Part shown: positions 17,484 through 55,759 of the stretch, piece after piece
Position numbering within the stretch: position 1 is the stretch's first letter
How the letters are laid out: each line of letters starts with the position of its first letter
Assembly (NCBI RefSeq): GCF_000522985.1
Contig: NZ_CP007128.1
Span: 4,386,220 to 4,450,219, forward strand
Source: Gemmatirosa kalamazoonensis
Lineage (GTDB): Bacteria; Gemmatimonadota; Gemmatimonadetes; Gemmatimonadales; Gemmatimonadaceae
Length of the DNA: 64,000 nucleotides
Direction: 5' to 3'
Notes under the pieces: model-generated
Database searches by the model: none
What the model was told of the DNA's origin: nothing
What the model saw: the letters and a program-made list of their open reading frames with translations, nothing else
Program-made: the position numbers and the translations under genes

Positions 17484-17536
17484 GTGGCTGCGTGGCTGCG
17501 TACGCACGGCACGCAGCGACGCAGCCACGCAGCCAC
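17484..17536. repeat. Tandem-unit inverted repeat (hairpin), GTGGCTGC units, between convergent genes
   Basis: Perfect 18-nt arms at 17484-17501 and 17519-17536, each two copies of the 8-mer GTGGCTGC, flank a 17-nt loop. It fills the gap between the convergent small-protein gene and glgP and probably acts as a two-way terminator. The same unit builds the hairpin at 55703-55759. Confidence 0.8.
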
Positions 17537-36153: not shown

Positions 36154-36232
36154 CGATCGTCAGGCGTCACTGGTGTCGTGAGGTCTCATGCGGAGGCGCG
36201 GAGAACGCGGAGAACTTCCCTTGCCGTGTGAT

Positions 36233-36376
36233 TGAACCGCAGAGGACGCAGAGGGCCGCAGAGAGCATCAACAGCAAAGACCCGGGGATGAAAGGATCCC
36301 AGGATCCCTGAGGATCCTTTCATCCCCAGATCTTTTGCTGTTCGAAGAGGCGGCCCTCTGCGGCCCTCTGCGGTTC
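36233..36376. repeat. Nested inverted repeat, GCAGAGGGCC units
   Basis: A nested structure with arms starting GAACCGCAGAGG and ending CCTCTGCGGTTC, made of near copies of GCAGAGGGCC, then a middle pair (CAACAGCAAAGA against TCTTTTGCTGTTC), and a 16-bp perfect core (36284-36299 with 36312-36327). It fills the gap between the SDR gene start and the S9 peptidase stop on the - strand. The outer unit matches the one in the hairpin at 48915-49159. Confidence 0.8.
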
Positions 36377-44836: not shown

Positions 44837-44895
44837 AGCGTGGAGCGTGGAGCGTGGAGAATGCAGTCGACGCTCTACGCTCCACGCTCCACGCT
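44837..44895. repeat. Tandem-unit inverted repeat (hairpin), AGCGTGG units, overlapping the ffh stop
   Basis: Arms 44837-44859 and 44873-44895 (23 nt, one mismatch) are three copies of the 7-8 nt unit GCGTGGA. The loop is 13 nt. The structure starts at the ffh stop codon and lies between ffh and rpsP, so it could reduce read-through or protect the ffh mRNA end while letting ribosomal genes be set at another level. Confidence 0.8.
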
Positions 44896-46249: not shown

Positions 46250-46400
46250 AGCCTTCTAAAGTACCGCAGGATAAGATCTTGAGCAACCGGCCCGGGTGCC
46301 CTGCCAACGGCGGGCGCTCGGGTATCAGGTCTGCATCGTCCTCCCGGCCCGACCCGACGCCGGGCCGATGGCTCCCGTACTCCCCAGCCCGACACGTCGA

Positions 46401-48896
46401 ATGGCCAGGTCCCAGCGCAAGGACGAGATCCTCGCCTCCGAGGTCCCCCCGGTCCTCCCGCTCATGGCGCTGCGCTCCACCATCGTGTACCCGCTGGGGA
46501 CGATCGCGGTGCAGATGGGGGCGCCCGAGAATCTCGCGCTGCTGCGCGCGAACGAGGAGCCCGGCGTCATCGTCGCCCTCGTCGTCGCCTCGGGCGACCA
46601 CGAGGATCCGATGGAGGTCGCGAAGTTCGTCGGCCGAGTCGGCGTGGCGGCCCGCGTGCACGAGCGCATCAACCTCCCCGGCGACACCGTCCAGATCACG
46701 CTCCAGGGGCTGCGGCGGATCACCGTCGACGGCATCGAGCAGTCGGACCCGTTCGCCATCGCGCGCGTCTCGCCGGCGAAGGACATCCCGGTCGATCCGA
46801 CCGAGCTCGACGAGCTCGTGTCGCGCGTGGTGCAGGCGGCGGAGTCGCTCGCCAACATGGTCGACCGCATCCCCGACGAGGTGCCGGCGATCCTGAAGAT
46901 GAACGTCTCCGATCCGGGGCGGTTCGCCGACCTCGCGGCGACGAACATGAACTTCCGGATCGCCGACAAGGACGAGGTCCTGCAGCGCCTCGACGTCGGC
47001 CAGCGGCTGCGCTTCATCCTCTCGCGGCTCGAGCGCGAGGTCGCGCGCGCGCGCGTGATGGAGGACGTGAAGAAGCAGACCGAGATCAAGATCGAGCAGC
47101 ACCAGCGCGAGTTCTATCTGCGTCAGCAGCTGCGGGCGATCCAGGCGGAGCTCGGCGAGACCGATCCGGGCGAGAAGGAGGCGGTGGACATCATCCGCCG
47201 CATCGACGAGGCGAACCTGCCGGAGAAGGTGACGCAGGAAGCGAAGCGCGAGATCGAGCGGCTCCGCATGCTCTCGCCGGCGTCGAGCGAGTACCAGGTG
47301 ATCCGCACGTACCTCGACTGGATCCTCGCCTTGCCGTGGCACAAGCGCTCCGGCGACAAGGAGATCGATCTCAAGAAGGTCGAGGAGGCGCTCGGCGAGC
47401 GGCACTACGGGCTCGACGAGGCGAAGGACCGCATCGTGGAGTACCTCGCCGTGCAGAAGCTGAAGGGGGGCGACCCGAACGGGCCGATCCTCTGCTTCGC
47501 CGGCCCGCCGGGCACGGGCAAGACGTCGCTCGGCGAGGTGATCGCGAAGGCGATCGGGCGCGACTTCTACCGCATCTCGGTGGGCGGCGTGCGCGACGAG
47601 GCGGAGATCCGCGGCCACCGGCGCACGTACGTCGGCTCGATGCCGGGGCTCCTCATCCAGGCGCTGCGGCGCGTGGGGGTGAAGGACCCGGTGTTCCTCA
47701 TCGACGAGATCGACAAGATGTCCGGCGGTGGGCCGAGCGGCGATCCCACGGCGGCGATGCTGGAGGTGCTCGACCCGTCGCAGAACTCGTCGTTCGTCGA
47801 CCACTACCTGAACCTGCCGTTCGACCTCTCGTCGGTGCTGTTCATCTGCACGGCGAACAACATCTTCGACATCCCCGGCCCGTTGCGCGACCGCATGGAG
47901 GTCATCCGCATCGCCGGGTACACGATCGAGGAGAAGGTCGAGATCGCGTGGCGCTATCTCATCCCGCGGCTGCTCGACGAGCACGGGCTGTCCGACAACG
48001 ACATCGTGTTCACCGACGAGGTGCTGTCGTTCGTGTCGAGCCGCTACTCGCGCGAGGCGGGGCTCCGCAACTTCGGGCGCAACCTCGCGACGCTCATGCG
48101 CAAGCGCGCGCGCCGGAAGGCCGACGGCGAGGAAGGCGCCTGGGTGCTCGACCTCACGAACGTCGAGGAGGTGCTGGGCCCTCCGCGCTACGCGATGGAG
48201 GAGGCGGAGAAGGAGCCGGAGGTCGGCGCGGTGACGGGGCTCGCGTGGACGTCGACGGGCGGCGATCTCATGGTGATCGAGGCGCTGCGCATGCCGGGGA
48301 ATGGCCGCCTAACGGTCACCGGTCAGCTCGGCGACGTGATGCGCGAGAGCGTGGACGCGGCGCACTCGTTCGTGCGCTCGCGCGCGCGCCAGATCGGCAT
48401 CGACGAGCGGGAGTTCAAGGACTCCGACATCCACATCCACTTCCCCGCCGGCGCGATCCCGAAGGACGGGCCGTCGGCCGGCATCGCGATCACGCTCGCG
48501 ATCGCGAGCGTGCTGTCGCGCCGGCCGATCCGCCGCGACCTCGCGATGACCGGCGAGGTGACGCTGCGCGGCAAGGTGCTGGAGATCGGCGGCGTGAAGG
48601 AGAAGGTGCTCGCCGCGTACCGCGCGGGGCTGCGCGAGGTGATCCTGCCGAAGGGCAACGAGAAGGATCTGCGCGACGTGCCGAAGGAGGTGCGCGAGAA
48701 CATGACGTTCACGTTCGCCGGCACGATGGACGAGGTGCTGCGGCTCGCGCTGCTCGACGCGCCGGTGCCGCGCGCGGACCAGGCGCCGGAGGGGGACGAG
48801 CACTCGGCGCCGATCTCCGACGCGGCGGACCTGGAAGTCGGCGCGAACCGACGCACGCCGGGGGCGAGATCGGACGTCGCGGTGGCGGACCGTTAG
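46401..48896 (+). CDS. lon: ATP-dependent protease Lon
   Basis: An 831-residue LonA. I chose ATG 46401 because MARSQRKDEILASEVPPVLPL fits the LonA N-terminus. Residues to about 310 form the substrate-binding N-domain; then AAA+ with FAGPPGTGKTSLGE (Walker A) and PVFLIDEIDKM (Walker B); and the protease domain with the catalytic Ser692 in KDGPSAG and Lys in the GGVKEK motif (733/735). The last 40 residues are an acidic, likely flexible extension. It degrades misfolded and regulatory proteins in the cytosol. The stop is within a CGTTAGGC word, and the largest hairpin of the window follows. Confidence 0.96.
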   Translation: MARSQRKDEILASEVPPVLPLMALRSTIVYPLGTIAVQMGAPENLALLRANEEPGVIVALVVASGDHEDPMEVAKFVGRVGVAARVHERINLPGDTVQITLQGLRRITVDGIEQSDPFAIARVSPAKDIPVDPTELDELVSRVVQAAESLANMVDRIPDEVPAILKMNVSDPGRFADLAATNMNFRIADKDEVLQRLDVGQRLRFILSRLEREVARARVMEDVKKQTEIKIEQHQREFYLRQQLRAIQAELGETDPGEKEAVDIIRRIDEANLPEKVTQEAKREIERLRMLSPASSEYQVIRTYLDWILALPWHKRSGDKEIDLKKVEEALGERHYGLDEAKDRIVEYLAVQKLKGGDPNGPILCFAGPPGTGKTSLGEVIAKAIGRDFYRISVGGVRDEAEIRGHRRTYVGSMPGLLIQALRRVGVKDPVFLIDEIDKMSGGGPSGDPTAAMLEVLDPSQNSSFVDHYLNLPFDLSSVLFICTANNIFDIPGPLRDRMEVIRIAGYTIEEKVEIAWRYLIPRLLDEHGLSDNDIVFTDEVLSFVSSRYSREAGLRNFGRNLATLMRKRARRKADGEEGAWVLDLTNVEEVLGPPRYAMEEAEKEPEVGAVTGLAWTSTGGDLMVIEALRMPGNGRLTVTGQLGDVMRESVDAAHSFVRSRARQIGIDEREFKDSDIHIHFPAGAIPKDGPSAGIAITLAIASVLSRRPIRRDLAMTGEVTLRGKVLEIGGVKEKVLAAYRAGLREVILPKGNEKDLRDVPKEVRENMTFTFAGTMDEVLRLALLDAPVPRADQAPEGDEHSAPISDAADLEVGANRRTPGARSDVAVADR

Positions 48897-48914
48897 GCGA
48901 GGCCGTTGCACGCG

Positions 48915-49159
48915 GAGACGCGGAGCACCTCGATTGCCTGTGAGTGAACCGCAGAGGGCCGCAGAGGGCCGCAGAGGACCCCCTCTTTGGCTTTGTATTC
49001 AACCACAGAGGACACGGAGGACACAGAGGACACCAACTTCTTGAAAAGGTTCTCCTCTGTGTCCTCCGTGTCCTCTGTGGTTCAAAGAGCAGTCGCCGTT
49101 CTCTGCGGCCCTCTGCGGCCCTCTGCGGTTCAATTCCGACAGGCAGTTCTCCGCGTCTC
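48915..49159. repeat. Triple-nested perfect inverted repeat between lon and the DUF445 gene
   Basis: Three nested stems: outer 11 bp (48915-48925 with 49149-49159, GAGACGCGGAG), middle 32 bp perfect (48945-48976 with 49101-49132, units GCAGAGGGCC), inner 30 bp perfect (49001-49030 with 49053-49082, units CACAGAGGA). Each stem is itself a tandem repeat with a different unit. It fills the gap between convergent genes and could stop transcription both ways, yet it is far larger than a usual terminator. Translations across it give only repetitive, spurious peptides. Confidence 0.9.
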
Positions 49160-49174
49160 GGCGCGACCTCGGCG

Positions 49175-50476
49175 TCAGAGCAGCCGCTGGATCGTGTACA
49201 GCAGCAGCCCGACCAGCCCGCCGACGACGGTGCCGTTGATGCGGATGTACTGCAGGTCCTTGCCGATCTGGATCTCGATGCGGCGCGACGTCGCGGCGGG
49301 ATCCCAGCCGGCGACGGTGGTCTCGATGAGCTGCGCGACCTCCGAGCGATACTGCTCCACCGCGAACAGCACCGCGTCGGTGATCCAGCCGTCGACCTTC
49401 GCCATCAGCTCGGGGTCGCCGAGGATCGCGTTGCCCAACGACACGAGGCCGCGCTCGACCGCGAGCAGCGTGCTCGTCCCCTCCCCCTCCTCGGCGTAGC
49501 GCGCGAGCTTCGACTTCACGTCGCTCCAGATCGACGCGGCGTACTCGCGCACGGCGGGGTGCGTGAGCACCTCCTCCTTGATCGCCTCGGTGCGCGCGAT
49601 GGTGTCGGGCGACGTGCGCAGCTTCTCGGCGAAGCGGCGCACGGCCTCGTCGAACCGCGCGCGCACCGTGTGATTCGGGTTCGCGGCGATCTCCACGAGC
49701 GTGCGCTCGAGCGCGGCGACGACCTTCTCGTGGATCCGATCCTCCACCGCGCCGGGCATCCACCACGGTGCCTCGGCGGCGATGCGGTCGCGGATCATCC
49801 CCTCGTTCTCGCCCACGAAGCGAACGGCGAGGCGGAGCGCGTCGTCGAACAGCTCCTGGTGGCGGCCGTCGGCCGTCAGCAGCTCGACGCCGCGTCCGAG
49901 GATCGGCGCGACCTGCACCTTCTGCGCGCGGCTCACCAGGCTGCGCTCGATGAAGTCCTGCACGTCCTCGTCGCGCAGCACCTGCGCGGCGCCGTGCAGG
50001 CTCGCCGCGACCTGGCGCCCCATGGTGCGCGCATGCGCCGGGTCGGACAGCCACGTCGCGACGCGGGCGCCGACGCGCGCCGAGGCGAGCTTCGCGGCGA
50101 CGACCTCGCGCGCGAGGAAGTTGCGCTGCACGAACGTGCCCAGGCTCCGTCCGATGCGGTCCTTGCGCGCCGGCACGATCGCCGTGTGCGGGATCTTCAG
50201 GCCTAACGGATGCCGGAACAGCGCCGTCACCGCGAACCAGTCGGCCACGCCGCCCACCATCGACGCTTCGGCCGCGGCGCGCACGTAGCCGAGCCACGGA
50301 TAGCGCGGCTCGAGCCACCGTGCCACGACGAACAGCACCGCCGCGACGCCCAGCATGCCGGTCGCGCGCCGCTGCATCACGACGAGCTGCCGCTGCTTCT
50401 CGGCCTCGTCCGCGATCGGCGGCGGCACGGTGGGATCGTGCTCCGGCCGCAGGATGACGCCGGTGCCGTCCGTCAC
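49175..50476 (-). CDS. DUF445 family membrane-associated protein
   Basis: A 433-residue protein starting with GTG 50476, overlapping the upstream gene's stop (GTGA). Near residue 42 a TM segment (GMLGVAAVLFVVARW) is followed by the DUF445 hallmark AAAEASMVGGVADWFAVTALFRHPLGLKIPHTAI (split: ASMVGGVADWFAVTALFRHP and LGLKIPHTAIVP). A long helical stretch follows, and a last hydrophobic segment (NGTVVGGLVGLLLYTIQ) ends the protein. Function is unknown; the family relates to YheB/YjiN-type proteins. It is the last gene of the operon that contains pilD and the Clp-like ATPase. Confidence 0.88.
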   Translation of the reverse strand: MTDGTGVILRPEHDPTVPPPIADEAEKQRQLVVMQRRATGMLGVAAVLFVVARWLEPRYPWLGYVRAAAEASMVGGVADWFAVTALFRHPLGLKIPHTAIVPARKDRIGRSLGTFVQRNFLAREVVAAKLASARVGARVATWLSDPAHARTMGRQVAASLHGAAQVLRDEDVQDFIERSLVSRAQKVQVAPILGRGVELLTADGRHQELFDDALRLAVRFVGENEGMIRDRIAAEAPWWMPGAVEDRIHEKVVAALERTLVEIAANPNHTVRARFDEAVRRFAEKLRTSPDTIARTEAIKEEVLTHPAVREYAASIWSDVKSKLARYAEEGEGTSTLLAVERGLVSLGNAILGDPELMAKVDGWITDAVLFAVEQYRSEVAQLIETTVAGWDPAATSRRIEIQIGKDLQYIRINGTVVGGLVGLLLYTIQRLL

Positions 50477-55702: not shown

Positions 55703-55759
55703 GCGTGGCTGCGTGGCTGGGTCACCGCCATCACGCAGCCACGCAGCCACGCAGCCACG
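55703..55759. repeat. Tandem-unit inverted repeat (hairpin), GTGGCTGC units, between convergent genes
   Basis: Perfect 17-nt arms (55703-55719 and 55736-55752), each two copies of GTGGCTGC or its complement, with a third copy extending the right side to 55759. Loop 16 nt. It lies between the stops of the M48 gene and punA. The unit is the same as in the hairpin at 17484-17536, 38 kb away. Confidence 0.8.

Follow-up and report, generated by a model that had tools for sequence, protein, structure and literature searches.

The window analysed here is a stretch of 64,000 nucleotides from the genome of Gemmatirosa kalamazoonensis. Within it, the gap between the convergent genes for the Lon protease and a DUF445 protein is filled by a nested inverted repeat with outer (O), middle (M), and inner (I) layers. 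The preliminary description, made from the sequence alone, placed the repeat after lon, which is accurate: lon ends at position 48896 of the forward strand, and the DUF445 gene ends at 49175 on the reverse strand. The features are as follows.

46296–48896, + strand: lon protease gene (open reading frame; Pfam Lon_C, E 3e-88), stop codon 14 bp from the element
48911–48928, + strand: outer layer, left arm, CGCGGAG units (inverted repeat I5, 89%); the outer layer also flanks other copies and occurs alone
48945–48976, + strand: middle layer, left arm, CGCAGAG units, 32 bp perfect, dispersed in the genome
48977–49000, + strand: left linker between M and I; related linkers recur at this place in other copies
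49001–49030, + strand: inner layer, left arm, CAC[AG]GAGGA units, 30 bp perfect, with arm matches genome-wide
49031–49052, + strand: apical loop, which varies from copy to copy
49053–49082, + strand: inner layer, right arm, pairing with 49001–49030
49083–49100, + strand: right linker between I and M; related linkers occur in other copies
49101–49132, + strand: middle layer, right arm, pairing with 48945–48976
49146–49163, + strand: outer layer, right arm, the inverted-repeat partner of 48911–48928
49175–50476, − strand: DUF445 gene (gene call; PF04286, E 6e-112), convergent with lon, stop codon 11 bp from the element
36197–36373, + strand: second copy in the window, with O and M layers as in the lon copy and a different inner hairpin (GGGGATGAAAGGATCC)

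Architecture of the nested repeat

The arms of the middle layer are perfect over 32 bp and those of the inner layer over 30 bp, as had been described; in the inverted-repeat analysis of the window, their extensions to 35 and 33 bp, respectively, each match at 97%. The outer stem had been given as 11 bp, which is the length of its perfect core; the full outer layer spans 18 bp with a match of 89%. Imperfectly paired linkers separate the layers, and therefore the 73 bp of the preliminary description do not form a continuous stem. The tandem units recognized in the two long stems are present, and the outer layer has one as well: CGCGGAG in O, CCGCAGAGGG (10 nt) in M, and CAC[A/G]GAGGA (9 nt) in I. 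All three are variants of the block C[A/G]C[A/G]GAG.

The RNA of positions 48905–49170 is predicted to fold with an energy of −198.2 kcal/mol, far more stably than its shuffled versions (z = −18.7; none of 200 shuffles was equally good). Rfam gave nothing at gathering score, only sub-threshold matches that are mostly generic miRNA hairpins. Open reading frames that cover the site encode the spurious repeat peptides NHRGHGGHRG and TEDTEDTED, of the kind that had been anticipated. A misassembled palindrome, named beforehand as the finding that would overturn the description, is unlikely because the genome of strain KBS708 is a PacBio-only HGAP assembly with 118x coverage of the chromosome (PMC3974934), and because the same layer order is present at many loci with different flanks.

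Copies in the Gemmatirosa genome and their position relative to genes

The genome was surveyed over 1.26 Mb in four stretches (C2:600–1000 kb, C2:2.4–2.8 Mb, C4:640–1040 kb, and the window), with extra loci added. Outside the window, 1.2 Mb of this genome contain 140 perfect inverted repeats of at least 24 nt, to which the window adds two; registers of tandem arms that overlap were scored separately, and third-order Markov controls contained none. The inner arm has 72 forward and 76 reverse matches genome-wide, compared to none for reversed-pattern controls. The retrieved matches share the layered arrangement and lie in different flanks. Throughout the 1.26 Mb the order is O>M>(I or X)<M<O, and a reversal was never seen; one side is often without some of the layers. 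The nested order, which the preliminary description proposed to look for elsewhere, thus recurs dozens of times. Each of the 58 inner hairpins is accompanied by M units on one or both sides, while O and M hairpins also stand alone. The linkers between M and I are related between copies, in both orientations, and therefore at least the M–I part was probably multiplied as a composite.

The survey contains 157 tandem-unit hairpins. Other families with arms of tandem units in this genome are built from GGACTGAAGAA, AGGGCAGG, TCGGGAC, GTGGCTGC, ACAGGAT, and more. In the families I, M, K, and P, the apex is often of the type AACCAAC...GTTGGTT. Hairpins of other families are positioned in the window at 1537–1616, 17484–17536, 44837–44895, and 55703–55759 (AGGGCAGG, GTGGCTGC, AGCGTGG, and GCGTGGCT). 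Nearly all listed copies of the GGACTGAAGAA family (L031–L050, e.g. C2 ~648,171–648,318) have an additional terminal inverted repeat around them, CTCCACGTACG...CGTACGTGGAG, which is absent from the other families. At C2 3.20–3.28 Mb (L381–L384) there are almost no I, M, or K units, and AGGGCAGG units are commoner than elsewhere; the families therefore differ in their chromosomal distribution. At C2 ~619,895–621,208 (L001, L002), about 1.3 kb with IS-like ends splits the right arm of an M–I element.

The perfect arms of the lon copy are not typical. Three units are present in each arm of 44 copies; there, the A/G states of the two arms agree in 69 of 132 unit comparisons, compared to 79 expected, and only seven of the 44 copies have identical arm states. 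In codirectional contexts, G-U pairs are not preferred over A-C on the transcribed strand (12 versus 19). Homogenization of the arms within a copy was rejected since the arms agree less than by chance, and RNA-level selection for pairing since G-U is not favoured over A-C. The conserved feature is the sequence of the blocks, not their pairing. In a family of mostly mismatched copies, the lon copy is at the well-paired end, and its perfect pairing is not actively maintained. The earlier conclusion, that this locus must be young or actively kept because it pairs perfectly, is not supported; the element is a dispersed composite, and most of its copies are mismatched.

The tandem-unit hairpins occupy a niche at the 3′ ends of genes. 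Gaps of at least 60 bp in the 1.26 Mb were defined with our own simple codon-model gene caller. Hairpins are present in 55 of 101 convergent gaps (54%), 76 of 308 codirectional gaps, and 6 of 167 divergent gaps (4%), where part of the length of an occupied gap is due to the element itself and the divergent gaps, longer to begin with, are nevertheless nearly element-free. The difference between convergent and divergent gaps has p = 2e-22. Of the 78 hairpins in codirectional gaps, 61 are nearer to the upstream stop codon. Hairpins are depleted both in genes and in divergent gaps, and the 3′-end enrichment may reflect only the loss of insertions elsewhere. Like intrinsic terminators, the elements place a GC-rich hairpin at gene 3′ ends. 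In the window, no T-run follows the main stem, and the only site detected is a weak minor one.

The context GTTAGGC surrounds 36% of the TAG stop codons (74 of 205 called genes) in the three genome stretches and the window, and by a rough estimate this heptamer is about eight times commoner than base composition predicts.

Distribution in other organisms and evidence of mobility

The preliminary description suggested kinship to CACAGAG-type intergenic repeats of environmental phyla, and the CACAGAG hairpin pattern was indeed matched in at least 117 stretches from more than 15 bacterial phyla and archaea. Carriers include Acidobacteriota, Bacteroidota, Chloroflexota, Planctomycetota, Pseudomonadota, Nitrospirota, Spirochaetes, Chlamydiae, and Calditrichaeota; many are metagenome-assembled genomes in which contamination is possible, and isolates are also among them (Sorangium cellulosum, Lacipirellula, Alcanivorax jadensis, Hymenobacter, and Bacteroides finegoldii). 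The wider relatives have 7-nt blocks at a 9-nt period with a free dinucleotide, lie within TTTTARC ... GYTAAAA ends, and have A-rich and T-rich flanks. Averaged across phyla, the hairpins are T-rich on the 3′ side and A-rich on the 5′ side. Their bias towards gene 3′ ends is milder, with 19 of 71 convergent, 54 of 217 codirectional, and 11 of 78 divergent gaps. Spread by phages was rejected: only 33 stretches were found among 2.9 million viral contigs. A strain-level search of E. coli gave no match, and the CACAGAG heptamer was met in the literature in unrelated papers only.

In Gemmatimonadota, 13 of 395 genomes are carriers; one species has 173 copies and several congeners none. These congeners are about 70% identical and therefore too diverged for empty-site junctions. 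In the Gemmatimonadota genome G292 (L227–L244), several CACAGAG hairpins are positioned inside an unrelated longer inverted repeat (~TGTTCTGGTTCCGAACAGATTGG...CCAATCTGTTCGGAACCAGAACA), which is possibly a second case of nesting.

Such junctions are available in Bacteroides. The arms of a B. finegoldii element (L301) share a 28-nt stretch, ACCACAGAGGACACGGAGGACACAGAGG, with the inner arms of the lon copy on each side. At the gmd–fcl site, three Bacteroides genomes carry the element, five are empty, one of these with flanks 94–98% identical, and one has a CGGAT-type hairpin. Compared with its relatives, B. finegoldii carries the element at this site as the reverse complement, a single case (64 of 66 positions match inverted, compared to 51 of 66 in direct orientation). 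Between the GH78 and GH65 genes, B. finegoldii carries the element and G419, with flanks 97–98% identical, an unrelated hairpin. The 159-bp unit, including its loop, is present elsewhere in G419 with 95% identity, at a locus not orthologous to GH78–GH65. At a third junction in seven other Bacteroides genomes, six have a different hairpin (two of them of one type), and one is short and empty; the hairpins at this junction across Bacteroides are CACAGAG, CGGAT-type, GGTGAAC-type, or a plain hairpin with a T-run. Mobility of the element is well supported by dispersal, patchiness, empty sites, one unit at unrelated loci, in-situ inversion, and slot exchange, the empty sites all being from Bacteroides and not from Gemmatirosa, for which the relatives searched included no genome of the same genus.

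The elements are inverted doublets with conserved arms and a variable loop, dispersed in extragenic space, as are REPs and REPINs. The palindrome foot does not carry a GTAG or CGTC tag; the conserved ends are TTTTARC or TTGAACC before CACAGAG. Neither a mobilizer nor a target-site duplication was detected; mirrored-offset 5-mers occur 10 times compared to 9.0 expected at 115 loci, and there is no clear excess at fixed offsets for lengths of 5–9 nt. The domain of the REP-associated tyrosine transposase RAYT (Y1_Tnp, PF01797) is absent from the Gemmatirosa genome (G000) and from the copy-rich genomes G013, G398, and G407. Across carriers its presence does not track copy number, and congeners that possess it, e.g. 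G258, G317, and G054, have no match to the strict hairpin pattern.

Proposed origin, alternatives, and known systems

We consider it probable that the element is a composite, non-autonomous, REPIN-like mobile hairpin made of nested cassettes, which was amplified, persists at gene 3′ ends, and probably serves there as a replaceable terminator. Simpler hairpin cassettes would nest in one another, with CACRGAG innermost, CGCAGAG around it, and CGCGGAG outermost, and the nested assembly would then have multiplied, at least as the middle–inner composite. Copies would persist just past stop codons, where the hairpin could act as a two-way terminator and form the mRNA 3′ end; at the locus described here it would separate the transcription of lon from that of the DUF445 gene. 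Hairpins of different families can take each other's place in one slot. The location after gene ends and the swapping with other hairpins in relatives make the element probably a mobile stand-in for a terminator. Terminator activity as such we only infer, because the main stem lacks a subsequent T-run and the transcribed strand shows no preferential preservation of pairing. Insertion may occur at the tip of a hairpin or terminator that is already in place, which would explain both the nesting and the colonization of terminators, and the mobilizing enzyme is presumably not a RAYT. A tentative extension of this proposal is that a cross-domain superfamily of interchangeable cassettes homes to hairpin tips, especially those of terminators, by putative non-RAYT machinery that reads tandem CRCRGAG-like 7-mers; serial homing would produce ordered nests and terminator swaps without loss of function.

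The elements might instead be purely selfish mobile hairpins without host function that survive at 3′ ends since insertions in genes and promoters were removed. The depletion in genes and divergent gaps, the lack of selection for paired arms, the patchiness among sister species, and the weak 3′-end bias beyond Gemmatirosa all agree with this. However, slots are refilled by hairpins of different families across species, and the T-rich and A-rich flanks suit a two-way terminator, so that we regard a purely selfish nature as rather unlikely. Classical REPs or REPINs moved by RAYT would share the inverted doublet, variable loop, extragenic location, preference for convergent gaps, and lack of target duplication (PMC3116915, PMC3733652, PMC1525189). 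Nevertheless, the copy-rich genomes, G000 included, lack Y1_Tnp, the congeners that encode it lack strict matches, and the conserved arm units are CRCRGAG blocks without GTAG or CGTC tags; such an origin is improbable.

A local palindrome, created by recent template switching during replication and kept perfect by hairpin-templated correction, would account for the perfect arms of the lon copy, and the in-place inversion in Bacteroides is a possible outcome of template switching at inverted repeats. As an origin it is refuted by the dispersed copies with matching layers; in addition, the arms of other copies agree less than by chance, and 28 nt are identical to Bacteroides arms, which leaves it highly improbable. 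The gap between lon and DUF445 might also encode an sRNA or a structured regulatory RNA, and the very stable fold would speak for this. Similarly little credence is given to it: the sequence has no Rfam match at gathering score, its loops vary, and its base pairs are not maintained. The composite mobile hairpin remains our preferred reading.

Among known systems, REPINs and BIMEs are also short extragenic inverted doublets with a variable spacer and high copy number, often in convergent gaps, and some REP dimers were recorded inside other palindromes (PMC3733652). They differ from the present elements, several copy-rich carriers of which are without RAYT, in that the arms here consist of two to four tandem 7-nt blocks at a spacing of 9–10 nt without the GTAG or CGTC tag, and in that hairpins of several families are nested, always in one order. 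According to the accessible part of one report (PMC4478555), GC clusters of yeast mitochondrial DNA are likewise mobile palindromes that merge with one another, with stand-alone and merged forms at one site; unlike the present elements, they are mitochondrial, about 42 bp long, and have terminal AG/ACT direct repeats, and no tandem arm units are reported in that part. MITEs are also non-autonomous short inverted-repeat elements of about 100–250 bp. In contrast to MITEs of the DDE type, no target-site duplication was seen here, the element forms a hairpin over its full length instead of having ends and a core, and no matching transposase is known.

In the literature searched, no published description of the element architecture or of a mobilizer was found. 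More than half of the convergent junctions of at least 60 bp in this genome contain hairpin elements, and their motif is common to bacteria and archaea. If confirmed, the proposal would mean that mobile DNA can supply and exchange transcription terminators, and it would explain the recurrent spurious repeat peptides in environmental genome annotation. What moves the elements without RAYT can be tested in culturable hosts such as Bacteroides. In the accessible part of a previous study (PMC11237797), 471 repeats were counted in the Gemmatirosa chromosome; most are short and form two classes by length, 90 and 150 bp, and that part does not describe how they are built, which families they form, whether they nest, or where they lie with respect to genes. 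These repeats are probably the present hairpins, because the simple and composite hairpins of the same chromosome have about those lengths.
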